From Bacillota bacterium (GTDB lineage Bacteria > Bacillota > Clostridia > Lachnospirales > Lachnospiraceae), in assembly GCA_902363515.1 (NCBI GenBank), contig CABJAN010000010.1:66160-130159 (forward strand): a DNA stretch of 64,000 bases. Direction: 5' to 3'. A model generated the notes under the pieces. It had not been told where the DNA came from. It was given only the letters and a program-made list of their open reading frames with translations, and made no database searches. Made by a program: the position numbers and the translations under genes. Below, one piece after another: positions 16,716 through 56,903 of the stretch (position 1 is its first letter; every line of letters begins with the position of its first letter).

Positions 16716-16799
16716 CGTTGAAAAATAAAAGGTTTTCATATAGAATAAAATGTACTAAATAGAATACAATATACAATGTACAAAATGCCAGGGTCAAAA

Positions 16800-16941
16800 G
16801 GTCATAAACCACGTTGTGCTTGCACATAAGTGATTTTATGCCTTTATGACCCGCCCTAAAATGAGGATAAAAGTGGAGCGTAAGCTTCACGATATCCGAA
16901 TTTAGGGTAGAATTGTGAGAGCACAAAGTGCGGAACAATTC
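16800..16941 (+). ncRNA. Candidate structured RNA or intergenic palindromic element
   Basis: Three successive stems occupy 140 bases upstream of ispE. Stem A pairs GGTCATAAA (16800-16808) with TTTATGACC (16843-16851) and contains a GTGC/GCAC inner pair. Stem B pairs CCCTAAA (16854-16860) with TTTAGGG (16901-16907) and encloses GTGGAGC/GCTTCAC. Stem C pairs GAATTGT (16910-16916) with ACAATTC (16935-16941) and encloses GCAC/GTGC. I cannot assign it to a known family. Confidence 0.5.
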
Positions 16942-17005
16942 GTCAGGCATGTTACTTTCATATCTGTGTATACAAAGATAAAACAATTTTCAGGGAGGAA
17001 ACCAC

Positions 17006-42709: not shown

Positions 42710-44815
42710 ATGGCAAAGAAGAAAAGTAAAAAGAAAAGAAAGCAACAGAAAAAGAGAGTGCTCTGTCTTGTAAGCGTTGTACTTGTGGCAGTGGTTGGCG
42801 CAGGTGGAGTATTGCTGTATAAGAAAATGACAGAAAAAACCAGAGAAGATATTATAAAAGAGTACATGGGCTATATTGAAAAAAAAGAGTATGAGAAAAT
42901 GTATGCTCTTTTAGATGAGGTGTCCAAAGACAAGGTGAAACAAGAAGATTTTATTACCAGAAACCAGAACATTTATGAAGGAATCGAAGCAGAGAAAATT
43001 CAGCTGGATATTCCAGAAGAACAGGATAAGGACCAGCCCCTGTCCTACCGGGTGACTATGGATACTCTGGCAGGAGAGATTACCTATGATGCAGATACTT
43101 TTTTTGAAAAAGAGAAAGGACAGTGGCATCTGGTGTGGGATGATTCTGTGATTTTTCCAGGGCTGGAAAGCAAGGATAAGGTCAGCGTTTCCTCTGTGGA
43201 GGCGAAACGGGGCAGTATTTATGACCGAAATGACGTGCTTCTGGCAGGACAGGGGGAAGTGGAGTCAGTGGGACTTGTTCCGGGGAAAATGAATATTCAG
43301 GCAGAGGAAGACATTGAGGATCTGGCAGAAATTCTTGGGACAACTTCAGAATTTATTGAAAAACAGCTAGATGCTTCCTGGGTGCAGCAGGATAGCTTTG
43401 TTCCATTGAAGAAAATGACACAGGAGCAATTAGACGAGGCTTATGTTCCGAAGGAAGGCGCAGAAAGCGCAGGTGGTAGTATTCAGGATAAGTTACTGGA
43501 ATATCCCGGTGTTCTGATTTCAAAAGCCGAGAGCAGGGTCTATCCTTATGGAGAATGTACCGCACATTTACTGGGATATGTGCAGCAGATTAATGCAGAA
43601 GAACTGGAGGAAATGAAAGGCAAGGGCTACAATGAGCAGAGCGTCATTGGAAAAAGCGGTCTTGAGAAACTTTATGAAGATAGGCTGAGAGAGAAAAAGG
43701 GTTATCGGATTTCCATTCTGGACGAGCAGGGTGAAGAAAAACAGGCACTGGCTGTAAAGCCGGCAGAAGATGGGGAGAATATTAAGCTGAATATTGATAT
43801 CCGCTGGCAGCAGAAGCTCTATGAGGCTTATCAGGAGGATAAGAGCTGTTCGGTGGTTATGAATCCAAAGTCCGGGGAGGTGCTGGCCCTTGTTTCCACA
43901 CCCTCCTATAACAGCATGGATTTTGTCCTTGGAATGTCCCAGGAAACCTGGGATGCTTTGAATAATGACCCCAATAAACCTATGTACAACCGGGTAAGAG
44001 AGACCTGGGCGCCTGGTTCTTCTTTTAAACCCATTGTAGGGGCTGTGGGACTTACCACAGGAGCGTTTACAGAAGAGGAAGATTTGGGCGCAAGCGGGCT
44101 GGCATGGCAAAAGGATGAAAGCTGGGGAAATTATAAGGTAACTACGCTTCATGAATATAGTGGCGGCGCAGTGCTTAAAAATGCCCTGATTTATTCTGAT
44201 AATATTTATTTTGCAAAAGCAGCCTTAAAGATAGGGGCAGAGACCTTTACAGGGGAGCTTGACAAAATGGGATTTAATCAGGAGATTCCTTTTGATATTG
44301 GCATGACCTCTTCTCAGTATTCCAACTCAGAGGCTATTGATTCTGAAGTGCAGTTGGCAGACAGTGGGTACGGACAGGGACAGATGTTGGTAAATCCTCT
44401 GCATCTGGCTTGTATGTATTCCGCATTTTTCAATGAGGGAAATATGATTACCCCTTATCTGGAATATGAGGAAGGAAAAACAGCCTCCTACTGGGCCGAA
44501 GGAGTTTTCACACCAGAAGCAGCAAATATCATTTATGAAGATTTAAAAGAAGTAGTAAGCAATCCAAATGGAACCGGGTATGGGGCTTCTAAGGCGGTGG
44601 GAGTTACTCTTGCGGGAAAGACCGGAACAGCAGAAATCAAAGCCACCCAGGAAGATGAAAATGGAACAGAACTTGGCTGGTTTGCGGTTTACAATACAGG
44701 AGTTGCAGACAGTGATACAATCCTTATGCTGAACATGGTAGAAGATGTGAAAGGCAGAGGCGGAAGCGGTTATGTAGTAAACAAAGATGTGGAAATCTGG
44801 AACCAGATGCAATAA
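42710..44815 (+). CDS. Penicillin-binding transpeptidase, PBP2a/MecA-like
   Basis: 701 residues, a class B transpeptidase. A lysine-rich cytoplasmic tail and one helix (about 18-40) precede an NTF2-like MecA_N domain (45-150), a dimerisation domain ('RGSIYDRNDVLLAGQG') and the transpeptidase domain with 'SSFK' (SxxK), 'YSDN' (SxN) and 'AGKTGTAE' (KTG). The NTF2-like head is shared with low-affinity PBPs such as MecA and PBP3 of Clostridia, but resistance cannot be concluded. AGGAGG precedes the ATG. The MBL-fold lipoprotein gene follows after 23 bases. Confidence 0.9.
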   Translation: MAKKKSKKKRKQQKKRVLCLVSVVLVAVVGAGGVLLYKKMTEKTREDIIKEYMGYIEKKEYEKMYALLDEVSKDKVKQEDFITRNQNIYEGIEAEKIQLDIPEEQDKDQPLSYRVTMDTLAGEITYDADTFFEKEKGQWHLVWDDSVIFPGLESKDKVSVSSVEAKRGSIYDRNDVLLAGQGEVESVGLVPGKMNIQAEEDIEDLAEILGTTSEFIEKQLDASWVQQDSFVPLKKMTQEQLDEAYVPKEGAESAGGSIQDKLLEYPGVLISKAESRVYPYGECTAHLLGYVQQINAEELEEMKGKGYNEQSVIGKSGLEKLYEDRLREKKGYRISILDEQGEEKQALAVKPAEDGENIKLNIDIRWQQKLYEAYQEDKSCSVVMNPKSGEVLALVSTPSYNSMDFVLGMSQETWDALNNDPNKPMYNRVRETWAPGSSFKPIVGAVGLTTGAFTEEEDLGASGLAWQKDESWGNYKVTTLHEYSGGAVLKNALIYSDNIYFAKAALKIGAETFTGELDKMGFNQEIPFDIGMTSSQYSNSEAIDSEVQLADSGYGQGQMLVNPLHLACMYSAFFNEGNMITPYLEYEEGKTASYWAEGVFTPEAANIIYEDLKEVVSNPNGTGYGASKAVGVTLAGKTGTAEIKATQEDENGTELGWFAVYNTGVADSDTILMLNMVEDVKGRGGSGYVVNKDVEIWNQMQ

Positions 44816-44838: not shown

Positions 44839-45996
44839 ATGAGAGAACTATTTCAAAGAAACAAAAAACGTAGAATAAGCTTGGCAGCAGGTCTGTTGAT
44901 GTTACTTCTGTGTCTTGCAGGATGTAATCCCAAAGATATGAACAGCGTCACAGCTCAGGCGTCCGGGCAGGAAACCCAGGAACAGGAGAATCAGGAGAAG
45001 CCTTCTGGAAGCCTGAACCTTCATTATCTGGATGTGGGACAGGGAAATGCAGTGCTGGCGGAATCTCAGGGGCATTATATGCTCATAGATGGCGGCGCAA
45101 GAAAGGCATCTTCTTTTGTGGTAAGTTATCTGGAAAAACAGGGAGTGAAGGAACTGGATTACTTGCTGATTTCTCATTTTGATGAGGACCATTTGGCGGG
45201 AGCTATTGGTGCTTTGCACAAATTTCCGGTGAAGCAGTTGATTACACCGGATTATGAGACGGATTCCTCTATTTATCAGTCCTATGCAGAGGTGGTACAG
45301 GAGAAGCAGTATCAGGCCATTCATCCAAAAGTGGGAGACGAGTTTGCCTTTGGTACAGCAACCTTTCGTGTGATTTCTCCTGTTGCCTACGGACATGAGG
45401 ATGAGAATCAGGATTCTGTGGGAATTATCCTCCAAAATGGAGAGAACGAGTTTTTCATTGGAGGGGACATTGGGCTGGAAAGCGAAAAGGAAATTCTTAA
45501 TGCGGGAACAGATATCCAGGCGGATGTGATGCTGATGAATCATCATGGTTCCCATGTGAGTGATGAGTTTCTTCATGCAGTGAATCCGGACTATGCAGTT
45601 ATTAGCTGCGGCGCAGGCAATAGTTATGGGCATCCAAGACAGGATACCGCAAAGCTTTTAGAAGAGGAACAGATACCTCTGTTTCGTACTGATAAACAGG
45701 GAACCATAGATATAAGCAGTAATGGACAAGACATTACCTTTGCACAGAAACCATGTAATGACTATACACCGGGCAGCAGAGGCGGCAATTCCCAGCAGGA
45801 GGAAGCTGCCGGAAGCATGGAAAATGCAGGACCGGAGGACTGTGATTATGTGTTAAATGCACATACGAAAAAAATTCATCTGCTGGAGTGTTCCTCTGTG
45901 AAAACCATGGATGAGGATAATAAGGAATATTATAAAGGGGATAAGCAGGCACTCTTGGATAATGGGTATACGGAATGTGGAAATTGTAATCCTTAA
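44839..45996 (+). CDS. MBL-fold (ComEC C-terminal-like) lipoprotein with Cys-rich tail
   Basis: 385 residues. Lipoprotein signal with 'LAGC' (Cys about 29), then a metallo-beta-lactamase fold domain (about 58-300) with 'LDVGQGNAVL', the metal motif 'SHFDEDHLAGA', 'NHHGSH' and 'GNSYGHPR', as in the hydrolase domain of ComEC/Rec2. A C-terminal module ('YVLNAHTKKIHLLECSSVK', ending 'ECGNCNP') with paired cysteines follows, common in secreted nucleases. A role in extracellular nucleic acid breakdown is plausible but inferred. Confidence 0.85.
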   Translation: MRELFQRNKKRRISLAAGLLMLLLCLAGCNPKDMNSVTAQASGQETQEQENQEKPSGSLNLHYLDVGQGNAVLAESQGHYMLIDGGARKASSFVVSYLEKQGVKELDYLLISHFDEDHLAGAIGALHKFPVKQLITPDYETDSSIYQSYAEVVQEKQYQAIHPKVGDEFAFGTATFRVISPVAYGHEDENQDSVGIILQNGENEFFIGGDIGLESEKEILNAGTDIQADVMLMNHHGSHVSDEFLHAVNPDYAVISCGAGNSYGHPRQDTAKLLEEEQIPLFRTDKQGTIDISSNGQDITFAQKPCNDYTPGSRGGNSQQEEAAGSMENAGPEDCDYVLNAHTKKIHLLECSSVKTMDEDNKEYYKGDKQALLDNGYTECGNCNP

Positions 45997-46008
45997 AAGT
46001 TGAGATGG

Positions 46009-46046
46009 CGGTCATACAGTGTTGGGCTGTGTGGCCGTTAAATTTT
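46009..46046 (+). terminator. Probable terminator after the MBL-fold gene
   Basis: An 11-bp stem with two G-U pairs (46009-46019 with 46027-46037), followed by a T-rich run. Confidence 0.7.
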
Positions 46047-46122
46047 TGTGTAAAAATCTTTCCTATTTTCCGCACAGTTTAACATGTAGATTCGTTATAT
46101 TTAGTAGAAGGAGGGCAGAAGC

Positions 46123-46590
46123 ATGGAACTGGAAGAATTGTATGACCGTATTTACCGGTATTGCTATTTTTATATAGGCAGAAAAGAATTGGCAGAAGAT
46201 TTAACACAGGAAACGTTTCTGCGCTTTTTTCACAGGAATCCTTCTCTGCATCCGGAGAAACAGCTTGCTTATCTGTATACCATTGCGAAAAATCTCTGTA
46301 CGGATGCTTATCGGAAAAAAAGAGAGGAATTGCCGGGAGAGGATTTGGAAAGTAGGATAAAAGAGCATGTTTTGCCCCTGGAGCAGGCAGAACTCAGGCT
46401 GGATTTAAAACAGGCTATTCTTCAGATGGACAGGCAGACCCAGGAATTATTGTTGTTAAGATATGTGGATGGACTAAGCCCAGGGGAAGCTGGAAAAGTG
46501 TTGGAACTGTCCAGATTTGCAGTGTATCGGAGAGAAAAGGAAGCATTGAGAAAACTGAGGGATTATTTTTCTCATGGAAATGAGGTGTAA
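46123..46590 (+). CDS. ECF-type RNA polymerase sigma factor (cassette 1)
   Basis: 155 residues containing region 2 ('AEDLTQETFLRFF', preceded by 'YRYCYFYIGRKE') and region 4 ('LLLRYVDGLSPGEAGKVLEL', then a helix with 'REKEALRKL'). Such factors redirect RNA polymerase to stress genes. AAGGAGGG supports the ATG. Two bases separate it from the six-helix membrane protein, then ABC ATPase and permease. The paralogous factor at 50577 has the same neighbours. The octamer GATTCGTT lies upstream of both. Confidence 0.88.
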   Translation: MELEELYDRIYRYCYFYIGRKELAEDLTQETFLRFFHRNPSLHPEKQLAYLYTIAKNLCTDAYRKKREELPGEDLESRIKEHVLPLEQAELRLDLKQAILQMDRQTQELLLLRYVDGLSPGEAGKVLELSRFAVYRREKEALRKLRDYFSHGNEV

Positions 46591-46592
46591 AT

Positions 46593-47327
46593 ATGCGAAA
46601 AAAGAAAGAGATATTAAAAATAAAACTGGAAAAAGTGTATTCTCCACCAACACCGGAGAGAAAGGGAGAGTTTTTGCAGAATCTTTCTTATCCGCAGATT
46701 TCTTTTTGGGAATTTTTGCGTATTCAGGCATTCTATATTGGGAAATTGGTTTGGGCGGGGAATATTTTTTTATTTTGTGCAGGTGTTTTTTTAGGAAAAA
46801 TCCTTATGGAAAAGGGATTTTCGGGAGGAATGCTGGCAGCTTTTTGCGCAGTACTTCCATTTGTGGTGGCGCTTCTGGCAGGAGAAGTTTCAAAATCAAC
46901 ACGTTTCGGAATGCAGGAATTGGAATTAAGCGCAAGGTACCGTATGGAACAGGTTATGCTGGCAAGGCTGTTTCTCTTATCCGGGGCGGCAACCCTCCTG
47001 ATTCTTGGCGGATGTATTTTTATTTCATGGAATTCCATGGTTGGTATGCTTCCCTGCATTTTTTATTTAACGGTTCCCATGCTTTTTAATGCAGTCTCTT
47101 CTCTTTGGATTTGCAGACAAATTCCCTCTCTGGAAATACGTGATGTGAGCCTTGGAATCAGCGCAGTCATGGCAGGGATTCATATTTTGGCTATGGAGAG
47201 AATGGCATGGATGTACGAAAAGGCTTATTTGATTTTCTGGGTGGGCATGTTATTGGTTTTGATAGTGGTTCTTAGCAAACAGGTGAAACAATATAGAACG
47301 AATCTGGAGGGATATGTATGGAATTAA
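46593..47327 (+). CDS. Six-helix membrane protein, possible anti-sigma/sensor (cassette 1)
   Basis: 244 residues, family not recognised. A basic cytoplasmic N-terminus of ~55 residues precedes six predicted helices. The stretch 'MQELELSARYRMEQVMLARL' after helix 2 is conserved in the cassette-2 paralogue ('LEIEATARYSIERLLLARI'), which defines the family by eye. It lies exactly where an anti-sigma factor usually lies (2 bases after the sigma gene) and overlaps the ATPase gene by 10 bases. It might sequester the sigma factor, or be an extra ABC membrane subunit. Confidence 0.75.
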   Translation: MRKKKEILKIKLEKVYSPPTPERKGEFLQNLSYPQISFWEFLRIQAFYIGKLVWAGNIFLFCAGVFLGKILMEKGFSGGMLAAFCAVLPFVVALLAGEVSKSTRFGMQELELSARYRMEQVMLARLFLLSGAATLLILGGCIFISWNSMVGMLPCIFYLTVPMLFNAVSSLWICRQIPSLEIRDVSLGISAVMAGIHILAMERMAWMYEKAYLIFWVGMLLVLIVVLSKQVKQYRTNLEGYVWN

Positions 47328-48184
47328 AAATTTCAAGGGTGACAAAACAGTTTTTGGAGAAAATTGCAGTGGACAGAGTGTCTCTTAACATGAAGCCGGG
47401 AGTTTACGGACTTCTGGGGGCTAACGGCGCAGGGAAAACCACGTTTCTTCGTATGATTTGTGGTGTTTTAACTCCGGACAGCGGTGAAATTTCTCTGGAC
47501 AGGTTTTCAGTAAAGGAAGAAGAATATAGAAATTGTCTGGGGTATCTGCCCCAGAAGTTTGGATACTATCCTAACTTCACAGCCTGGGATTTTCTCATGT
47601 ATATGGCGGCATTAAAGGGGATTTCAAGAAATCGTGCAAAGGTAAGGATTGAGGAATTATTAGAAGCAGTGAATTTAAAAGGTGCAGAAAAGAAAAAGAT
47701 TGCGGCTTTTTCCGGTGGAATGAAACAGAGACTTGGAATTGCACAGGCGCTTTTGAATAATCCCAAACTGCTGGTTTTGGACGAGCCTACTGCCGGTCTT
47801 GACCCAAAAGAAAGGGTAAAGTTCAGAAATATGATATCCCATCTTGGAAAGGATCGTATTGTGCTCTTATCTACCCATATTGTTTCGGATGTGGAATATA
47901 TTGCGGATGAAATTTTGCTCATGAAAGAAGGGAGTATTCTCCATGAGGGAAGCTTGCCGGAAATCTTAAAACCCATTGAGGGAAAGGTATGGGAATGCAG
48001 GGTAAATTTTTCTGAAGAAGCGCAGATTCTGGAACAGTATGCAGTGGTAAATATGAGAGAAGAATCACAGGGCACGTTATTAAGAGTTGTGGGAGAAGAA
48101 AGTCCTTCCGAAAATGCTGTAAGCGTGGAGGCAACTCTGGAAGATTTGTATCTTTATTATTTTGCAGGAAAGGGAGGAGAATAG
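47318..48184 (+). CDS. ABC transporter ATP-binding protein (cassette 1)
   Basis: 288 residues with Walker A 'GANGAGKTT', Q-loop 'YLPQKFGYYPNF', signature 'FSGGMKQR', Walker B 'LLVLDEPTAGLD' and switch 'STHIVSD'. It belongs to the ABC-2 exporter ATPases (as in BcrA or CcmA-type). It begins within the previous gene (10-base overlap) and ends 3 bases before the permease gene, so translation is coupled. It is clearly homologous to the cassette-2 ATPase throughout its length. Confidence 0.93.
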   Translation: MELKISRVTKQFLEKIAVDRVSLNMKPGVYGLLGANGAGKTTFLRMICGVLTPDSGEISLDRFSVKEEEYRNCLGYLPQKFGYYPNFTAWDFLMYMAALKGISRNRAKVRIEELLEAVNLKGAEKKKIAAFSGGMKQRLGIAQALLNNPKLLVLDEPTAGLDPKERVKFRNMISHLGKDRIVLLSTHIVSDVEYIADEILLMKEGSILHEGSLPEILKPIEGKVWECRVNFSEEAQILEQYAVVNMREESQGTLLRVVGEESPSENAVSVEATLEDLYLYYFAGKGGE

Positions 48185-48187
48185 TGT

Positions 48188-49393
48188 ATGAGAGAACTGG
48201 TTTTCTTTGAGTATAAGAAGATGATGAAACGGAAATCGGTATGGATTAGCGTGTGTGCTATGCTGTTTGTGGTGTTGCTTTGCTCTAATCTGTCTCTTTT
48301 GGGTAGTGTTTATGTGGATGATCATAAGGTGTTCAGCCATTTTGAAGAAATCCAAATCAGGCGTGAAGGGGGAGAAAAGCTTGAAGGTGCTGTGCTGGAA
48401 GAGGGCTTTCTGGAAAAGAATGTAGAGGAATATGAGGTTTATTTAGCAGACAGGGACAGTGGGAAAGTTACCTGGGAAAACTATCAAACAGTACAAGAAG
48501 AGGTGGCATCTGCACAGCTTCTTTCCTGGTGGGTGGAAAGGCTTGCGCCTGGATTCCAGGAAGAAATGCAGGCAGATAATTTTTACAGCAGGAGAGAGGA
48601 AAGCATGGAGGAGTCCTGGAAGGCAGCAGGATTTAGCTCTGGTGAAATTCAGGCGCACAGAGAGCAGAATGAGAGAATTGCTACGCCATTTACCTATTCC
48701 TATTGTGAAAGCTATGAAAAATTTGCCCTGTATTGGGTTTCTAATATGATTGTTTTAGCTATGGCAGTGGCAGTATGTGTGGCGCCGATTTTTGCAGAAG
48801 AATACAGTACGGGCATGGATGTGCTGCAGCGCTCTTCCAGAAAGGGAAGAGGGAAACTGGTGGCAGCGAAACTGATAACGGGATTTTCCTTTACCCTGCT
48901 TCTGGGCGCGGTTACTTTTGTTACCAGCCTGGCAATGGAAATTTGTATCTACGGTTCAGGAAGCCTTGATGCGCCAATACAGATGATGGAATCTCTTTTA
49001 CTTAGCAGCTATCCTTTTACGGTAGGTGAAATGTTGTTGCTGCTCTTTTTTGCCAGTGAAATATCATTGCTTGTTCTTGCGGCTGTGGTCATGTTTTGTT
49101 CTGCCAGAATGAACAGCTCTTTTGGACCGGTTCTGGTGGGGGTTTTACTAAGTTTATTGTCAGTGGTAAAAGAAATGATTCCTTCCTGGATGATAACCCT
49201 GCGGAAAATTGCTTCTATGCTGCCGGGACCTTTTGCAAGCTGCGAAAGTTTATTTGATGAGAGATTTTGGAAGCTGGGAGGAATATATCTGAAAAGCTAT
49301 GAGTATGTACCGGTGATTTATGCTATAATGATTTTACTGTTCTGCGGACTTGCTTACAGAAGCTTTGTGCGTGGAAAAAATGTATGCACATAG
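48188..49393 (+). CDS. ABC-2 type permease (cassette 1)
   Basis: 401 residues. One N-terminal helix (about 17-38) is followed by a ~140-residue extracellular loop and then five or more helices, an ABC-2 layout. 'CVAPIFAEEYSTGMDVLQRS' followed by 'SRKGRGKLVAAKL' corresponds to 'VIAAPVFTSDYQTGADDILR' and 'TKHGRRRMAVCKI' in the cassette-2 permease. Export of a peptide, lipid or antibiotic is likely; substrate unknown. It is followed after 19 bases by an alcohol dehydrogenase gene. Confidence 0.85.
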   Translation: MRELVFFEYKKMMKRKSVWISVCAMLFVVLLCSNLSLLGSVYVDDHKVFSHFEEIQIRREGGEKLEGAVLEEGFLEKNVEEYEVYLADRDSGKVTWENYQTVQEEVASAQLLSWWVERLAPGFQEEMQADNFYSRREESMEESWKAAGFSSGEIQAHREQNERIATPFTYSYCESYEKFALYWVSNMIVLAMAVAVCVAPIFAEEYSTGMDVLQRSSRKGRGKLVAAKLITGFSFTLLLGAVTFVTSLAMEICIYGSGSLDAPIQMMESLLLSSYPFTVGEMLLLLFFASEISLLVLAAVVMFCSARMNSSFGPVLVGVLLSLLSVVKEMIPSWMITLRKIASMLPGPFASCESLFDERFWKLGGIYLKSYEYVPVIYAIMILLFCGLAYRSFVRGKNVCT

Positions 49394-49412
49394 ACCAAAG
49401 GGAGGGAAAATA

Positions 49413-50453
49413 ATGCTGGCATATACATATAAGGAAAAGGGAAAATTTGTGTTAGAAGAGAAAGAGAAACCTGAGGTTTTAAAGGAACAGGATGCCATTG
49501 TGCGGGTGACTCTGGCAAGCATTTGCTCCAGTGATATTCATATCAAACATGGTGCAGTGCCAAGAGCAGTTCCTGGAATTACAGTAGGCCATGAGATGGT
49601 TGGTGTTGTGGAAGAAGTAGGAAGGGAAGTTACAAAAGTAAAACCAGGAGACAGAGTCACTGTAAATGTGGAAACTTTTTGTGGAGAATGTTACTTTTGC
49701 AAACAAGGTTTTGTGAATAACTGCACAGATGAAAATGGCGGCTGGGCGCTGGGCTGCAGAATTGATGGAGGACAGGCAGAATATGTCCGCGTTCCCTATG
49801 CCAATCAGGGGTTAAATAAAATAGCAGATTCTATTACAGACGAAGAAGCTTTATTTGTAGGAGACGTACTTGCCACAGGATTTTGGGCTGCCAGAATTTC
49901 AGAAATCAGTGAGCAGGATACGGTAGTGATTCTGGGAGGAGGCCCCACCGGAATTTGCACCCTTTTGTGTGTGATGCTGAAACAGCCGAAAAGAATTATA
50001 TTATGTGAAGTAGATCCGGTGCGGATTGCCTTTGTAAAAGAACATTATCCCCAGGTGCTGGTAGTGGATCCCACAGAGTGTGATGTGAAGGAATTTGTAA
50101 GACAACACAGTGAGCATGGTGGGGCAGACAGGGTTCTTGAGGTTGCGGGAGGAACTCATACCTTTGAGCTGGCCTGGAAAATCGCCCGCCCCAATGCCAT
50201 TGTAACAGTGGTAGCACTTTATGAAGAAAATCAGATACTTCCCCTTCCAAAGATGTATGGAAAGAATCTAACCTTTAAGACAGGGGGTGTGGATGGATGT
50301 GATTGTGATGAAATTCTGAAATTAATTGAGGAGAAGAAAATAGATACTACACCGCTCATTACTCATAGATTTTTGCTGAAGGAAATTGAAAAGGCGTATG
50401 ATATTTTTGAAAACAGGAAAGAACATGTGCTTAAGGTGGCTATTCGGCCATAA
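49413..50453 (+). CDS. Zinc-dependent alcohol dehydrogenase (MDR family)
   Basis: 346 residues from ATG 49413, preceded by GGAGGG; the frame opens earlier but that region lies inside the permease gene. The catalytic-zinc region reads 'SICSSDIHIKHG' and 'GHEMVGVVEEVG', the structural zinc site is 'CGECYFCKQGFVNNC', and the nucleotide-binding motif is 'VVILGGGPTGI'. Most family members oxidise secondary alcohols or sugar alcohols with NAD(P). It separates the two sigma/ABC cassettes and could be read through from cassette 1. A terminator follows. Confidence 0.9.
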   Translation: MLAYTYKEKGKFVLEEKEKPEVLKEQDAIVRVTLASICSSDIHIKHGAVPRAVPGITVGHEMVGVVEEVGREVTKVKPGDRVTVNVETFCGECYFCKQGFVNNCTDENGGWALGCRIDGGQAEYVRVPYANQGLNKIADSITDEEALFVGDVLATGFWAARISEISEQDTVVILGGGPTGICTLLCVMLKQPKRIILCEVDPVRIAFVKEHYPQVLVVDPTECDVKEFVRQHSEHGGADRVLEVAGGTHTFELAWKIARPNAIVTVVALYEENQILPLPKMYGKNLTFKTGGVDGCDCDEILKLIEEKKIDTTPLITHRFLLKEIEKAYDIFENRKEHVLKVAIRP

Positions 50454-50467
50454 AAGGAATTTGATTG

Positions 50468-50517
50468 AAAACTTGCAGGGAATTGCGATTTTGCATTTTT
50501 CTGCAAGTTTTTTTGTT
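50468..50517 (+). terminator. Rho-independent terminator after alcohol dehydrogenase
   Basis: An 11-bp stem AAAACTTGCAG/CTGCAAGTTTT (50468-50478 with 50501-50511), followed by a T-run. Confidence 0.88.
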
Positions 50518-50576
50518 TTTTAAATCATTTTCTATGCTATGATTCGTTGTAATAGATGAGGAGGTTATATTATATT

Positions 50577-51131
50577 TTGACGCGCGAGAAAAAATTAATC
50601 AGACAAATAGAAGATGGAGACAAGGGCGCCCTTGGGGAATTGATTGAGATGTACTATGCTGATATTTTACGGTACTGCAGCTGGCATACATCCGGGGCAG
50701 TGTATGCAGAAGATGCCACACAGGAGACCTTTTTGAAAGCAGTGCGTTATCTGGATACCACTGGCTTCAAGGGGGAATTTCGTCCATTTATCTATAAAAT
50801 TGCCAGAAATACCTGCATTGACCTGGCACGGAAGAGGTACCAGGATGATACCAATTTGGAGCAACTGGAACAGGAGCCGAGATATTCGGAAGCCGGGTTT
50901 GAGAAGACAGAGGATGATGTCTGGTTACAGCAGCTTATCAGCAATCTGGAGCCGGAAAGTCAGGAAATCCTGTTGCTGCGGTTCGGACAAAATCTCACCA
51001 TCAGGGAAACAGCACAGACCATGGGACTTCCTCTTAGGACAGTGCAATCTAAATTAAGAAGCCTGCTAAAGAGACTGAAAACAGAATTTCAGCAGATGGA
51101 TGGAAAGCAGAAGGGAGGCTGGAAAAAATGA
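50577..51131 (+). CDS. ECF-type RNA polymerase sigma factor (cassette 2)
   Basis: 184 residues if started at TTG 50577, 12 bases after AGGAGG (50559-50564). The ATG at 50556 is the only ATG nearby but contains that ribosome binding site inside its own codons. Region 2 ('EDATQETFLKAVRYL') and region 4 ('LLLRFGQNLTIRETAQTMGL') are clear, and the region in between is slightly longer than in the cassette-1 factor. Its stop overlaps the next gene's start (ATGA). Confidence 0.85.
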   Translation: MTREKKLIRQIEDGDKGALGELIEMYYADILRYCSWHTSGAVYAEDATQETFLKAVRYLDTTGFKGEFRPFIYKIARNTCIDLARKRYQDDTNLEQLEQEPRYSEAGFEKTEDDVWLQQLISNLEPESQEILLLRFGQNLTIRETAQTMGLPLRTVQSKLRSLLKRLKTEFQQMDGKQKGGWKK

Positions 51132-51913
51132 ACAGGATAGAGGAGAGACTTCGTGCATACTATGGGAAACCCTCCGGTGAAAGAAAAGTTTCTGCAAAAG
51201 AAAAGGATGCAATGCAAAAAACCATTCTCATGGCAGAATTGGAATTGAATAAAAAACAAAAGAGGGAGCAAAAGGGATTTGGCGCATTTTTATTCGAACA
51301 GATGCGGATGACAGGTATGCGAATCTGGATAGGACAAACAGGTATGGTTCTGGCTGTTTTCCTGCTTGTGTATTTTATGACAGGGGTGGAATTCCGCTTT
51401 TTTACACCAAGACGATTCGCTTTCTTAGCTGGTATTTTTGGGATTTTTCTGTTTTCATCAGCAATCCCGTTTTTATATAGGGCAAAAAGATATGGAATGT
51501 TGGAGATAGAAGCAACTGCCAGATATTCTATTGAGAGGCTGCTTCTTGCCAGAATTTTCATAATCAGTGCAGGGGATTTGCTCATGCTCTTTGGCATTGT
51601 GTGGCAGATTTCAAAAAGCTCAAGCCTTACTGTATGGCAGACGATTTTCTGTCTGTGTCTGCCATTTTTGCTGGCATTCAATGGCGGGATTTACTTGTTG
51701 AGGAAAGTTACTTTTGTGCATTTTCAAAAATGGGCTTATGGCATGTGCATGTTCCTGTGCGGCATTTTCGGAGGCGTTACTTTTGTTTATCCGGAATTTT
51801 ATCAGGTGAAATTTACAGTTTTCACAGGAGGTATTGTAATCATACTGGCTGGAAGTATCATTTACCAGAGTTTTGCGCTGTTTCACGAGGGAAAGCAGTG
51901 TGTATATGAATAA
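51128..51913 (+). CDS. Six-helix membrane protein, paralogue of the cassette-1 protein
   Basis: 261 residues. A charged N-terminal ~55 residues ('KEKDAMQKTILMAELELNKK') is followed by six helices. 'YGMLEIEATARYSIERLLLA' corresponds to 'FGMQELELSARYRMEQVMLA' in the protein at 46593, and the spacing of helices is the same. The start overlaps the sigma gene stop by 4 bases, as for many anti-sigma factors. No zinc-binding HXXXCXXC anti-sigma motif is present. It is an orphan family as far as I can see. Confidence 0.75.
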   Translation: MNRIEERLRAYYGKPSGERKVSAKEKDAMQKTILMAELELNKKQKREQKGFGAFLFEQMRMTGMRIWIGQTGMVLAVFLLVYFMTGVEFRFFTPRRFAFLAGIFGIFLFSSAIPFLYRAKRYGMLEIEATARYSIERLLLARIFIISAGDLLMLFGIVWQISKSSSLTVWQTIFCLCLPFLLAFNGGIYLLRKVTFVHFQKWAYGMCMFLCGIFGGVTFVYPEFYQVKFTVFTGGIVIILAGSIIYQSFALFHEGKQCVYE

Positions 51914-51927
51914 AACAGGAGGTCAAT

Positions 51928-52827
51928 ATGGAATTAGAAATCAGAGAAATTTCCAAACATTATAAAGACAAAAAAGCAGTTGACAATGTGTCCCTTACTC
52001 TGACACCGGGAGTATGGGGGCTTCTTGGGGCAAATGGAGCAGGGAAAACGTCCCTTATGCGGATGATTGCAGGAATTGTGAAGCCAACCTCTGGAGAGAT
52101 TCTCTATGATGGATTGCCCATTTGGACATTAAAGGAGAAATACAGGGAAATTTTCGGATATCTGCCTCAGGAGTTTGGGTTTTATCCGGAATTTACTGTG
52201 AAATCCTATTTGGAATACGTGGCATCTTTGAAAGGATTATCCAGAACCACCACCAGGAAAAAAATCGGAGAATTGCTGGAACGCCTTACATTATCGGATG
52301 TGAAAAATAAAAAAATCAGCAAGCTTTCCGGCGGAATGAAACGACGGGTGGGAATCGCCCAGGCCCTGTTAAATGATCCGAAGGTATTGATTTTGGACGA
52401 ACCTACCAGCGGATTAGACCCGGGAGAACGAATTCGTTTCCGTAATCTGTTGTCCGAATTTGCCCATAATCGTATTGTGCTGATTTCCACTCACATTGTA
52501 TCGGATGTGGAGTATATAGCAACGGAAAATGCAGTGATGAAACAGGGGAAAATTATTGAGACAGGGACTACGGATGAGTTGACCCAGTTAGTCAGTGGAA
52601 AAGTCTGGAGCGCCATGATCCCAACCAGAGAGGCGTTTTCCTATGAACAGAAAATGCGAGTAGTAAACTTGCGAAATGAAGACCATGATATGACCTCTCT
52701 GCGCTATTTGGCGGAGATTCCATTGATACCAGATTCCTGTCCGGCAGAGCCAAAGCTGGAGGATTTGTATTTGTGGTTATTCCCCCAGGAGGGCAGTGTA
52801 GATTCTGAAAAAGAAGAGGTGAAGTAG
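51928..52827 (+). CDS. ABC transporter ATP-binding protein (cassette 2)
   Basis: 299 residues with Walker A 'GANGAGKTS', Q-loop 'YLPQEFGFYPEF', signature 'LSGGMKRR', Walker B 'VLILDEPTSGLD' and switch 'STHIVSD'. It is collinear with the cassette-1 ATPase, including the unusual conserved 'HIVSDVEYIA'. GGAGG precedes the ATG, 14 bases after the membrane protein gene. It powers the permease encoded 1 base downstream. Confidence 0.93.
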   Translation: MELEIREISKHYKDKKAVDNVSLTLTPGVWGLLGANGAGKTSLMRMIAGIVKPTSGEILYDGLPIWTLKEKYREIFGYLPQEFGFYPEFTVKSYLEYVASLKGLSRTTTRKKIGELLERLTLSDVKNKKISKLSGGMKRRVGIAQALLNDPKVLILDEPTSGLDPGERIRFRNLLSEFAHNRIVLISTHIVSDVEYIATENAVMKQGKIIETGTTDELTQLVSGKVWSAMIPTREAFSYEQKMRVVNLRNEDHDMTSLRYLAEIPLIPDSCPAEPKLEDLYLWLFPQEGSVDSEKEEVK

Positions 52828-52828
52828 A

Positions 52829-54073
52829 ATGAGATTTTTAGGATTAGAAATAAAACGTGTACTCACAACAAGATTAACCTGGATTTTACTGTCTGTGGCA
52901 ATTTTATGTTCCATTTTCATGGCATATATTCCGGTTACCTTTGAATCAGTTACCTATACAGGGGAGCGGGGACAGGAAGTTCGGCTAAAAGGTGTGGATG
53001 CTGTGAAATATTTGCAGGAAATTCGCGCAGACCTGGAAGGTGACGTTACGCCGGAAAAGGTAAAGACAGCGCTTGCAGCGTTTCAGGAATGTCTCAACAA
53101 ATATGGGGTGACAGATACTTATGAACTGCCGGAGGAGGCAGACACAAAAGGGCTGCTTCCATACTGGGATTATGTACATGGAATCAGAGAAGCCTTTGCA
53201 GATGAAGAGACTGGTATTGCGCCGGCATTAACAGAAATCAATCCCAAGGACACAGAACAATATTATGAAAAAGTATCCAGACGTACCGAAGCCCTTCTGA
53301 AAATGGAGCAGACGGATTCTGTGTCAGCGCAGAAAAAAGCAACTGCAATGTATGACGAAGTAGAAAAACCATTTCAGTATTATTCGGGAATATACAGTAA
53401 TTCCATGGACTATCAGATTTTATTGATTTATATTATTACCATTCTGTGTGTGGTAATTGCAGCGCCGGTGTTCACCTCTGATTATCAGACAGGAGCAGAT
53501 GACATTCTGCGCTGTACAAAACATGGACGTAGGAGAATGGCAGTCTGCAAAATTTTATCTGCACTGCTGATTTGCGGAGGCGCCTTTTTACTCTGTTCCG
53601 TTGTATGGATTTTGATAACAAATGCGTTGTTTGGCTGGGAAAGCACCAAAACCTCTATCCAATTCATTTTTTCTGTTTCCAGCCTGCCAAATCTTACCAT
53701 AGGGGAAGCTCAGTGGGTAAATTTAGCAGCCAGTTTCGTAATGTTTCTTGCTATTGTCAGCTTTGCGCTGTACCTATCCACCAAAATGCGTAGCACGGTC
53801 TCTGCCCTGGCAGTTGCGTTGCTGTTCTGTATTCTGCCTATGCTGGCAACGAATGTGTTTCCGGGCGAGCTTGGACTGTGGCTGCAAAGCATCCTTCCAG
53901 GAGGGGGAATCGGTATGGGAAATAGCTTTTTATATGCGTTAATTGACTTCAAGTTTTTAAATCTGGGAAACTTAGCTGTATGGACACCCTATGCGTTAGT
54001 GTTCTTTGCAGTGATTCAGATACCGGTGTTTTTAGGGATGGCGGTGTATTCACATTGTAGGATGAGGCAGTAA
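52829..54073 (+). CDS. ABC-2 type permease (cassette 2)
   Basis: 414 residues: one N-terminal helix (about 10-32), a large extracellular loop (~140 residues) and five or more helices from about residue 185. Layout and the 'AAPVFTSDYQTGADDI' segment match the cassette-1 permease. It is last in the operon and is followed by a terminator. Substrate is not deducible. Confidence 0.85.
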   Translation: MRFLGLEIKRVLTTRLTWILLSVAILCSIFMAYIPVTFESVTYTGERGQEVRLKGVDAVKYLQEIRADLEGDVTPEKVKTALAAFQECLNKYGVTDTYELPEEADTKGLLPYWDYVHGIREAFADEETGIAPALTEINPKDTEQYYEKVSRRTEALLKMEQTDSVSAQKKATAMYDEVEKPFQYYSGIYSNSMDYQILLIYIITILCVVIAAPVFTSDYQTGADDILRCTKHGRRRMAVCKILSALLICGGAFLLCSVVWILITNALFGWESTKTSIQFIFSVSSLPNLTIGEAQWVNLAASFVMFLAIVSFALYLSTKMRSTVSALAVALLFCILPMLATNVFPGELGLWLQSILPGGGIGMGNSFLYALIDFKFLNLGNLAVWTPYALVFFAVIQIPVFLGMAVYSHCRMRQ

Positions 54074-54126: not shown

Positions 54127-54278
54127 CTGCGCGAAAATGCTTTAGTGCGGGTAAACAGAGGATAATAGAATGGCAGAGCAGGAACATAGAAATAAGAAGC
54201 ATATAAAGAGAAATGATATGAGAAGAATAGAGACCTTATGAGGTAAACAATCGTTTGCTAAAGAATAGGAGGTTTTGC

Positions 54279-54512
54279 ATGAGTGAAAAGAAAAAGAAAA
54301 TAGGTTTTACTGTTGCCTGTGTAAACGAATTTGCACAATATCATAATCTCAGCATACAAGAGGCATTTCGTTACCTTTTCCAATTCAAAGGTATCGCATT
54401 TATAAAAGAAAATTATGAAGTGGAGCATACTTTAGATTTTGGAACAATAATAGAAGATTTGGGAATCTTATGCCGAAAAAACGGAGGTGCTTGCAAAGTT
54501 TTCACAAAATGA
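54279..54512 (+). CDS. DUF3791 domain protein
   Basis: 77 residues from ATG 54279 (AGGAGG upstream). 'FTVACVNEFAQYHNLSIQEA', 'FIKENYEVEHTLDFGTIIED' is the DUF3791 pattern; such small proteins frequently accompany DUF3990 genes in Firmicutes accessory loci and may be part of toxin-antitoxin-like pairs. No DUF3990 gene is present here. The last codons run into the NADAR fragment in another frame, so the natural stop has probably been lost at a deletion junction near 54485. Confidence 0.7.
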   Translation: MSEKKKKIGFTVACVNEFAQYHNLSIQEAFRYLFQFKGIAFIKENYEVEHTLDFGTIIEDLGILCRKNGGACKVFTK

Positions 54513-54784: not shown

Positions 54785-56149
54785 TTACAAAGTATCTGCA
54801 AAAAAAGCAAGCTGAATAGCAAATTCCTGTTTTTGTTCTGAATACAGTATCTGCCCCTTCAGAAGTGACATCATTTTTTCTACATTTCGCAGACCAATGT
54901 GGGTGCTTGGCACAGAAGAGTCTGCTTCCTTGATTTTGTTTCTGATACGGATTTTTAATTCTCTGGATTCGTAAGAAACCTCAATCAAAACAGGGGTAGA
55001 TTTATCTCCGTATTTTAAAATATTGGAAAATAAATTTTGGAAGATTCGTTTCACCATGGTGGTATCACTGGTAAAAGAAGCCTTTTGTTTTTTCACTGTT
55101 ATGGCAGGCGTCATTTCGCAGGAAAAGCCTGCAAGGTGAATATAGTCTATATTTTCCTTTAAACAGTCATAAAAGAAAGAGAGTGGCAAAGACTCCATAT
55201 CCAGTGTTTCATTTTCCTCATAAACTAATGCATATTCAAACATTCGATCCGTCATATCTTTGATGTCTTTCGTTTTTTGCAGGCATCGTTTCAGATATTC
55301 TTCCTCCATTTCAGGAGATTTTTTCAGATGCAATACCTCAAGGTAACCATTTAGAATTGTGAGAGGCGTCCGCAGGTCATGAGACAATGCGGTGATTAAA
55401 TCCTGATTGGCCTGGCGGCTTTCCTGTTCTTGCTGAAGGGTATCAGCCAGTGTGATACGGAGCTGGTTTAATTCTGAGGACAGGATACCGATTTCATCCC
55501 CAGGATACTTTGGCAGGGCTGTTTTTAGATCTCCGGATGCCATTTGCAGAATACCATGTTCAATCTTAGAAATCTGTCTCATTTTGTGAGAGATAAAACA
55601 AAGAATAACGGATAAAAAAAGTAAAAAAGAAATACATAAACAGAATAAAACGTAAGGGTACAGAAACATGGAATTATGATAAAAGTACACCCGGATGATT
55701 CCAGAACCGTTTTTAAATTCTGCCGGGAATTCCCGGGAGTTTTCGCCTTCTCCTCCTGTTATGCGATAACCCATATCAAAAAAAGTCCGAAAAGTACTAT
55801 CTTCCATGGCGCTTGCATATTTCCCGGCACGATAGTAGCCATCAGAACCATAAACATAAATACTGGTATAAGCATCTCCTAAATCAAACCAGGGCTGAAG
55901 CTTCTGAATCGCTTCGGTGTCCGTTTCGGACTCAGGAAGATCATAGTTTGCCGCTTCTTCATAAAGCTGGCCTAAAAAGTTTTCATCACCATGAATGGGC
56001 GAAAAATGAAAGACAGGGTCAAGGGCTTCAAATACAGAGTATTTGTTATACCAGAGAAACTGGAACAGAGAATAACAAAAAATTCCTGTAAGCACAATGA
56101 GGAATGCCAGTTTTGTACGGATTTTCATGGTTGATAATTTCTTAATCAC
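54785..56149 (-). CDS. Sensor histidine kinase (HAMP-HisKA)
   Basis: 454 residues. Two helices (about 12-32 and 172-192) flank an extracellular sensor region of ~135 residues; a HAMP-like segment leads to the H-box 'ALSHDLRTPLTIL' and the N-box 'FQNLFSNILKYGD'. The usual DXGXG motif of the ATP lid is replaced by 'IRNKIKEAD', while 'THIGLRNVEKMM' keeps the G2-like part; this is seen in VncS/CiaH-type Firmicute kinases. It starts within the last 8 bases of the response regulator gene and is co-transcribed with it. Confidence 0.88.
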   Translation of the reverse strand: MIKKLSTMKIRTKLAFLIVLTGIFCYSLFQFLWYNKYSVFEALDPVFHFSPIHGDENFLGQLYEEAANYDLPESETDTEAIQKLQPWFDLGDAYTSIYVYGSDGYYRAGKYASAMEDSTFRTFFDMGYRITGGEGENSREFPAEFKNGSGIIRVYFYHNSMFLYPYVLFCLCISFLLFLSVILCFISHKMRQISKIEHGILQMASGDLKTALPKYPGDEIGILSSELNQLRITLADTLQQEQESRQANQDLITALSHDLRTPLTILNGYLEVLHLKKSPEMEEEYLKRCLQKTKDIKDMTDRMFEYALVYEENETLDMESLPLSFFYDCLKENIDYIHLAGFSCEMTPAITVKKQKASFTSDTTMVKRIFQNLFSNILKYGDKSTPVLIEVSYESRELKIRIRNKIKEADSSVPSTHIGLRNVEKMMSLLKGQILYSEQKQEFAIQLAFFADTL

Positions 56150-56843
56150 AGCGATACCCCTTTCCCCATACGGTTTTTATAATCTCAGGCTGATTTGGAT
56201 TTTCTTCAATTTTTCTCCTCAGATTACGCATATGTACCATCACTGTATTATTTGCCCCGTAATAATAGGGTTCTTCCCATATAGATTCATACAGATGCTC
56301 TGCGGAAAATACCTGTCCGCAATGTTTGATTAAAAGAACAAGCATACGGTACTCCGTATTGGTGAGGTCTATGGTCACTCCATCTTTCGTGACCTGTTCT
56401 GTCTGCTCATCAATGGTAAGTCCATGATAAGAAATTGCTTTTGAAGGCTCAAGGATTTCGGTTTTTCCTTTATATACATGGTAACGGCGCAGGAGAGCTT
56501 TTGTACGGTTGATTAATTCATTATAGGAAAAAGGTTTTGCAAGATAGTCATCTCCGCCACTGGAAAAACCAAGGGTCTTGTCACTGTCTTTGGTGCGTGC
56601 GCTTAGAAAGAGTATGGGGGCATTGCTGTTTTTCCGCATTTCTATACATGTCTGATAACCATTCATTCCAGGCATCATAATATCTAAAATAATCAAGTCA
56701 AAATCCTGTTTTTTTAACTGATTCAGGGCAGTTAAACCATCTTTTGCCTGAACGGTTTCAAAGCCTTCTCCCTTTAACAGAATTTCTATAATTTCCCTAA
56801 TTTCCGGGTTGTCATCCACAATGAGTATCTTTGATGTATCCAT
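56142..56843 (-). CDS. Response regulator, OmpR/PhoB family
   Basis: 233 residues from ATG 56843 (AGGAGG 7 bases before it on the minus strand). Receiver domain with 'ILIVDDN', phosphoacceptor Asp in 'LIILDIMMPGMNG' (about 53), Thr/Lys at 'LSARTKD' and 'YLAKPFSYNE'. The winged-helix effector ('TNTEYRMLVLLIKHCGQVFS', 'VMVHMRNLRRKIE') ends with 'VWGKGYRC'. It is divergent from the GtrA/GT2/YfhO cluster, with TTAAG repeats between them that may be its binding site. Confidence 0.92.
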   Translation of the reverse strand: MDTSKILIVDDNPEIREIIEILLKGEGFETVQAKDGLTALNQLKKQDFDLIILDIMMPGMNGYQTCIEMRKNSNAPILFLSARTKDSDKTLGFSSGGDDYLAKPFSYNELINRTKALLRRYHVYKGKTEILEPSKAISYHGLTIDEQTEQVTKDGVTIDLTNTEYRMLVLLIKHCGQVFSAEHLYESIWEEPYYYGANNTVMVHMRNLRRKIEENPNQPEIIKTVWGKGYRCD

Positions 56844-56903
56844 AGGTTTACCTCCTGATTTCAAGAATACATTATAACAGAAATAAATGTAAATAAAGAA
56901 AAC

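Follow-up and report, generated by a model that had tools for sequence, protein, structure and literature searches.

What keeps a sigma factor in check when its gene stands at the head of an exporter operon and no known anti-sigma factor is encoded beside it? The question arises in a stretch of 64,000 nucleotides (nt; hereafter, the window) from a Lachnospiraceae genome (Bacillota bacterium, assembly GCA_902363515.1, contig CABJAN010000010.1, positions 66,160 to 130,159 of the forward strand), where twin four-gene units lie on the + strand at 46123-49393 and 50577-54073. Each unit, or cassette, encodes in this order an extracytoplasmic function (ECF) sigma factor, a six-helix membrane protein, an ATP-binding cassette (ABC) ATPase and an ABC-2 permease. 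By the account in PMC7406223, a class I anti-sigma factor can be recognised next to about one third of ECF sigma factors. The answer that we consider somewhat probable is that each cassette is a self-activating operon, in which the sigma-proximal six-helix protein is an ABC-2 exporter half that holds the sigma factor at the membrane by means of its N-terminal tail.

Two cassettes of the same gene order

The eight genes (lengths in amino acids, aa) are the following.

46123..46590, + strand: ECF sigma factor 1, 155 aa; Pfam Sigma70_r2 1.2e-15, Sigma70_r4 2.6e-8; sigma2.2 motif AEDLTQETF
46593..47327, + strand: membrane protein 1, six-helix exporter half of predicted ABC-2 fold with an N-terminal extension of about 37 aa; predicted anti-sigma factor 1
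47318..48184, + strand: ABC ATPase 1; Pfam ABC_tran 1.1e-32
48188..49393, + strand: ABC-2 permease 1; ABC2_membrane_4 weak, 0.0013; homologous to permease 2
50577..51131, + strand: ECF sigma factor 2, 184 aa; Sigma70_r2 2.3e-12, Sigma70_r4_2 1.1e-10; sigma2.2 motif AEDATQETF
51128..51913, + strand: membrane protein 2, six-helix exporter half of predicted ABC-2 fold with an N-terminal extension of about 48 aa; predicted anti-sigma factor 2
51928..52827, + strand: ABC ATPase 2; ABC_tran 1.8e-33
52829..54073, + strand: ABC-2 permease 2; ABC2_membrane_2 3.6e-6, 26.9 bits, slightly below the 27.2 cut-off

A sequence-only reading of this DNA had described two units of identical order in which every matching gene was homologous, and the comparison bears it out: between units 1 and 2, identity amounts to 29% for the sigma factors (E 1e-16), 25% over 140 aa for the membrane proteins (2e-13), 50% for the ATPases (2e-102) and 23% for the permeases (2e-13). 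Judged from these and related sequences, the two cassettes are old paralogues. A recent local duplication of the pair is excluded because each sigma factor has a closer relative in another genome, at 68% identity for sigma 2 (locus L019) and 56% for sigma 1 (locus L156). The latter locus carries two complete cassettes in direct tandem. In unit 2, the sigma and membrane-protein genes share a 4-nt ATGA overlap. For sigma 2, the most likely start codon is the TTG at 50577, which is preceded by AGGAGG (50559-50564); the ATG at 50556 is disfavoured because a reading frame from there overlaps this ribosome-binding site.

A membrane protein linked to sigma genes

The gene of the membrane protein hardly ever occurs without an ECF sigma gene beside it. 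Relatives were searched for with a profile of the membrane protein alone, a match at E 1e-20 or better being called strong, and the loci fetched outside the window yielded 274 distinct proteins, of which 231 were strong and two of these lay at contig ends. A sigma gene stands directly upstream in 226 of the 229 strong relatives with upstream room (224 by script, and L243 and L145 by reading). The sequence-only reading had proposed this count of ECF neighbours while allowing that the link might prove not to be conserved; the latter possibility fails, because 226 of 229 relatives follow such a gene. As for the three remaining loci, the membrane gene is broken or cut in L183 and L188 and intact in L159, where a wider stretch (L334) holds an intact membrane protein, ATPase and permease, and where neither a sigma gene nor an adjacent promoter motif was found. 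Among the 43 weaker matches, a sigma gene was found in 37 by script and in two by reading, one match lies at a contig end, and three without any cassette gene nearby appear unrelated.

The arrangement of the genes is equally regular. The order sigma, membrane protein, ATPase, permease is kept in 107 of the 114 long loci, the permease not being found as a separate gene in the other seven. One of these is L195, in which a single open frame consists of the ATPase fused to the permease and the sigma gene is split over two frames. If the membrane protein is taken to begin at the in-frame start codon closest to the end of the sigma gene, the two lie within 20 nt of each other in 196 of 221 cases. 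In another relative (P0026), the N-terminus resembles a remnant of sigma region 4 running into the membrane protein, perhaps through an internal deletion.

The family is common: in the family of Bacterium C-53, which we take to be Lachnospiraceae, 103 of 397 sampled genomes match at E 1e-3 and 98 at E 1e-20 or better. In 30 of the 103, more than one match is listed, though a few of these matches are weak. In the order of Paenibacillus sinensis, 84 of 296 genomes match at E 1e-3, many weakly, and a phylum-wide draw gave matches in 18 of 398 genomes at E 1e-8. All of these figures are minimum counts, since scoring was confined to the few best candidates of each genome. Of 72 places initially without a locus, 40 were fetched. 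From other lists, contig-end, stop-broken or fragmented places (G454, G131, G257, G327:C10, G053:C1:3122358, G1371, G1125, G1402) and G1270:C29 were left aside. Looser operons of similar make-up (L275-L314, in Bacillales) encode a sigma factor, a membrane protein of about 235-350 aa and an ATPase, many of them without a permease by the profile used. Given these operons, the membrane-protein family may be wider than counted.

A predicted exporter half with a cytoplasmic extension

The membrane protein had been called unrecognised, and so it appears. Pfam and NCBIfam hold no relevant model for 54 members, the two of the window included, at E 0.1, the listed matches being chance-like; the ABC-2 models of both collections match none of the 54 at that threshold. 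PHROGs gave one chance-like match (E 0.15) for the two window copies, sequence searches of solved structures gave nothing below E 0.06, and the source annotation of the family, where legible, reads hypothetical protein. The shared core E..ARY..E..LLAR reported earlier is exact in copy 2, whereas copy 1 has E..ARY..E..MLAR. The absence of a zinc anti-sigma motif stands: by reading, HxxxCxxC (the ZAS-type motif) is missing from both copies, and it occurs in two of the 217 aligned proteins. This alignment set consists of operons, the two window cassettes among them, in which the sigma factor matched at 1e-30 or better, the ATPase at 1e-60 or better and the membrane protein measured 200 aa or more.

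The six helices assigned by the sequence-only reading recur in the predicted models of both copies, and the 50 structural matches listed per model are membrane domains of ABC exporters in all 50 cases for copy 1 and in 48 for copy 2, the other two being MlaE. These exporters are of type V. Both window proteins are thus predicted to have the type V (ABC-2) exporter membrane fold, preceded by an N-terminal cytoplasmic extension. Because this fold is predicted in both copies, the membrane protein looks like an exporter half itself, and no longer like the separate sensor beside the exporter that had been proposed at first.

The extension sets this short half apart from its partner, the first membrane window starting at residue 60 in the membrane protein (median, n=217) versus residue 18 in the permease (n=105). 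In the window, the membrane window starts at residue 14 in permease 1 and at residue 10 in permease 2, both of which lack an N-terminal extension; permease 1 reads as having a long hydrophilic stretch after helix 1. In solved halves (NosY, CcmB and Wzm), residue 1-2 is matched to residue 36-53 of the window models and, since the alignments begin there, the tail is additional to the ABC-2 half. It is modelled at low confidence (predicted local distance difference test, by block, 51-74) as short helices, at residues 2-13 and 23-48 in copy 2 and 2-15 and 21-30 in copy 1.

A conserved promoter motif upstream of the sigma genes

A promoter was predicted upstream of each cassette.

46071..46099, + strand: predicted ECF-type promoter of cassette 1; -35 CGCACAGTTT, -10 CGTTATA (46093-46099), with CGTT 30 nt before the start codon
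50522..50551, + strand: predicted ECF-type promoter of cassette 2; -35 AAATCATTTT, -10 CGTTGTA (50545-50551)

Spaced word-pair enumeration found TTTT-N13-GTTA upstream of 94 of 222 sigma genes (those of the window included), the best shuffled pair shown reaching 22. A matrix trained on these same 222 sequences gave sites above threshold in 178 operons versus 7.8 expected in shuffles, with CGTT at a median of 37 nt before the inferred sigma start, and the exact word CGTTATA, picked after the enumeration, occurs in 70 of 222 versus 1.0 expected. The standard ECF promoter (AAC...CGT) is not enriched (15 of 222, versus a shuffle mean of 8.7 and up to 15). The cassette 1 promoter, itself among the training sites, is the top site of the window on both strands (score 22.1), and its element also lies upstream of most of the nearest relatives of sigma 1. 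The cassette 2 promoter ranks sixth with the general matrix (11.3) and first with a matrix of its own class built without it (19.8). The second-best general match (15.5), at 55610 on the - strand, falls within a kinase gene, is T-rich and is probably due to chance. It is therefore likely, from these sequence comparisons, that the sigma factor drives its own operon from a conserved ECF-type promoter.

The -10 element is constant, with G at the second place of CGTTATA in 98%, and the -35 element varies (GCACA 52, TATC 23, other 103, no site 44). Among sigma factors below 60% identity, the nearest one carries the same -35 label in 174 of 178 cases versus 78 by chance, a figure based on three labels that is inflated by shared descent and by the mixed third label. 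At sigma 1 positions 131, 132 and 135, which lie in the region 4 recognition helix, the GCACA type is fully distinct from the TATC type; so it is in some columns elsewhere, as expected of two clades. The two window cassettes carry different -35 elements, each also found with most of the nearest relatives of its own sigma factor, and for this reason the cross-talk once suggested between the cassettes is unlikely at the promoter level. Differing in this way, the cassettes also form a natural set of predicted orthogonal sigma-promoter pairs.

How far such a sigma factor may reach was examined with an exact pattern of the first -35 type (CGCACATTT, 13 nt, CGTTA), which is strict and derived from such cassettes, so that only its scarcity elsewhere is informative. 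It has eight matches in 150 genomes and none for the reversed control; six are the cassettes' own promoters, and the other two (L335 and L336) have no cassette nearby. For the strict pattern, a very small regulon is suggested by this count, and the search gave no support to a broader one.

Proposed mechanism and its alternatives

A sigma factor that activates itself would require a brake. In the annotated loci, three partners are conserved with it: membrane protein, ATPase and permease. We propose the exporter half as the holder because it nearly always adjoins the sigma gene and because its cytoplasmic tail is about as long as a class II anti-sigma domain. The sigma factor would transcribe its own cassette from its own promoter, and the short half would capture it at the membrane by the N-terminal tail. 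The long permease is predicted to pair with this short half as a heterodimer, giving a single exporter that the ABC ATPase would drive. Contact of the exporter with its substrate, or transport of it, would make the tail release the sigma factor, and more of the cassette would be transcribed, until surplus short half recaptures the sigma factor and ends the response. The activity of the exporter would itself set when more exporter is made.

Several comparisons across the operons do not point to the membrane protein in particular. In mean-field coupling (217 operons, effective number 184), the maximal z was 6.3 for sigma and membrane protein, 7.4 for sigma and ATPase and 7.6 for membrane protein and ATPase, so that the first pair does not exceed the ATPase control. 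The tree of the sigma factor correlates better with that of the membrane protein (0.79) than with that of the ATPase (0.60), yet the partial correlation is 0.28 for the membrane protein and 0.34 for the permease (105 full operons), with overlapping bootstrap ranges. In sliding segments, residues 1-90 and 109-150 of the membrane protein reach 0.25-0.32 and its other segments 0.15-0.23, versus -0.13 to 0.21 for ATPase segments; the case that these trees made for the membrane protein as sole sigma partner was lost once the permease was added as a control.

These tests, which do not single out the six-helix protein, favour the reading of it as an ordinary exporter half, with the sigma factor held by the permease, the ATPase, an unlinked anti-sigma factor or nothing, and acting as a dedicated activator of the exporter operon. 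We regard this as unlikely. Most partner permeases lack the extension, the fixed element of the operons is the sigma-proximal gene, and a self-activating promoter without a brake would presumably be always on. A borrowed fold is another option, in which the six-helix protein would be an anti-sigma factor and sensor, the long permease would export as a homodimer and the substrate would be sensed secondarily. Against it stand two near-invariant residues of the short protein, E126 and E128, kept between membrane helices 2 and 3, the stretch in which ABC-2 halves contact the ATPase. A heterodimer also fits better because the partial tree correlation between the short half and the permease (0.58) is the strongest tested in the operon. 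We find this option unlikely as well, even though the short protein goes unrecognised by the ABC-2 models of Pfam, the equivalent place in SigY operons is taken by a small membrane protein apart from the exporter genes, and YxlF2G2 is listed as a homodimer exporter (PMC11466899). Likewise, the ordinary half has a published parallel in ECF257, which is described as neighbouring ABC transporters with no known anti-sigma factor (PMC8999054).

A further alternative is that the upstream motif is a housekeeping promoter or the operator of another regulator, and not the site of the cassette's own sigma factor. The agreement between -35 type and sigma subgroup is in part ancestry, because operons and promoters are inherited together, and sigma columns distant from region 4 separate the -35 types equally well. 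Still, the -10 element with its near-fixed G is unlike TATAAT, the -35 element changes among sigma subgroups while the -10 stays, the three positions of sigma 1 split the GCACA and TATC types without exception, and the one intact cassette without a sigma gene (L159/L334) also lacks an adjacent motif. This alternative appears very improbable.

The self-activating operon held by its own exporter half leads to a broader and more tentative picture, that of a widespread one-piece signalling exporter. The anti-sigma tail of an ABC-2 half could allow transport cycles to free a dedicated sigma factor without a kinase, a protease or a separate sensor, in more than 200 operons of Lachnospiraceae and Paenibacillus type, with a private promoter code per subgroup. 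Sigma factors that are linked to ABC transporters and have no known anti-sigma factor would thereby gain a concrete candidate, the exporter half itself. The question is testable by one deletion, that of the tail, and one reporter, that of the CGTTATA promoter.

Surroundings of the cassettes

Two further features lie between the cassettes.

49416..50453, + strand: zinc-type alcohol dehydrogenase; ADH_N 1.6e-26; 22 nt 3' of permease 1
50467..50512, + strand: intrinsic terminator 3' of the dehydrogenase; stem-loop of -23.7 kcal/mol, z -6.0; T-rich 3' arm and tail

The dehydrogenase is probably an incidental neighbour. No homologue was found at E 1e-20 among the reading frames of 314 loci, most of which stop short of the end of the permease gene (114 strong ones extend beyond it); its membership of the system is thus unsupported, most loci being too short to show it. 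Directly upstream of cassette 1 lie genes for a penicillin-binding protein whose N-terminus is a MecA_N domain and for a protein of metallo-beta-lactamase fold (42710-44815 and 44839-45996), both envelope-related and separated from the cassette by a hairpin with a T-rich tail (46006-46040). A small DUF3791 protein (1.9e-23; 54255-54512) follows closely 3' of cassette 2, and a histidine kinase and an OmpR-type response regulator (54785-56864, - strand) are convergent with it. Farther away, Clostridiales-1 RNA (RF01699, 125 bits) was detected at 16783-16952 of the window.

Comparison with known systems

The closest likeness is to the SigY operon (sigY-yxlC-yxlD-yxlE-yxlF-yxlG), in which YxlC is the anti-sigma factor of SigY and YxlG the permease. 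There too, the ECF sigma gene directly precedes one for a membrane protein whose N-terminal cytoplasmic part has about 55 residues, with an ABC ATPase farther on. In 39 of 40 SigY loci of Paenibacillus type (by script; six loci were also read), this protein is 101-141 residues long and about 55 of them are cytoplasmic, the first membrane window starting at residue 55 (median, n=39). However, the second gene of the SigY operon encodes a small one-hairpin membrane protein and two more small membrane genes follow, whereas the cassettes have one six-helix protein of predicted ABC-2 fold; YxlD and YxlE are absent, the ATPase coming directly after the membrane gene in both cassettes of the window. 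With the SigY model NF007216, sigma 2 scores 78.4 bits and sigma 1 43.7, both below the cut-off of 194. Homology to YxlC was not accepted: hhalign gave 16% over the first half with 5-6 YxlC sequences and, with 39, 60% (50% in the reverse direction), confined to some 40 columns within two membrane helices. The cytoplasmic part reached 2.7% probability, and those of the YxlC-like and window-type proteins have no detectable homology to each other.

Among ECF groups, ECF43-kind sigma factors are described as requiring phosphorylation (PMC8999054). The window sigma factors are not of this kind, because the acidic sigma2.2 motif AED.TQETF is intact in both; 136 of 217 operons have the doubly acidic pattern. 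They may be comparable to ECF257, a group whose conserved neighbours are ABC transporters and for which no anti-sigma factor is recognised; its model member comes from Kurthia, and its mechanism is called yet to be characterised in the same 2022 review (PMC8999054).

For the proposed tail, the nearest model is the class II anti-sigma factor CnrY, whose short cytoplasmic domain has two helices, the first binding sigma4 and the second sigma2, so that both are blocked; anti-sigma classes are stated to have almost no sequence in common (PMC7406223). A domain of this type has about 50 residues or fewer. The window tails may resemble it, two helices being modelled in each at low confidence; no sequence relation is to be expected. 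CnrY is not known to be part of an exporter. The membrane domain has its counterparts in NosY, CcmB, PmtD, KpsM, Wzm and ABCG (type V), which have the six-helix fold predicted for the window proteins; the half-size chains of NosY, CcmB and Wzm, however, have no residues matching the extension of 35-50 residues. An ABC complex as sensor is familiar from the Bce modules (BceAB-BceS, flux sensing), whose output feeds back positively on their own expression (PMC10314905). In that case a histidine kinase is under the control of the transporter, whereas the exporter of the window would control the sigma factor directly, without a kinase. In the open-licence PMC literature, no paper among the matches listed describes an ABC permease with an anti-sigma tail. 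The association of an ECF sigma factor, an anti-sigma factor and an ABC exporter was thus already known; what is new is that the anti-sigma role is predicted to reside in the exporter half.

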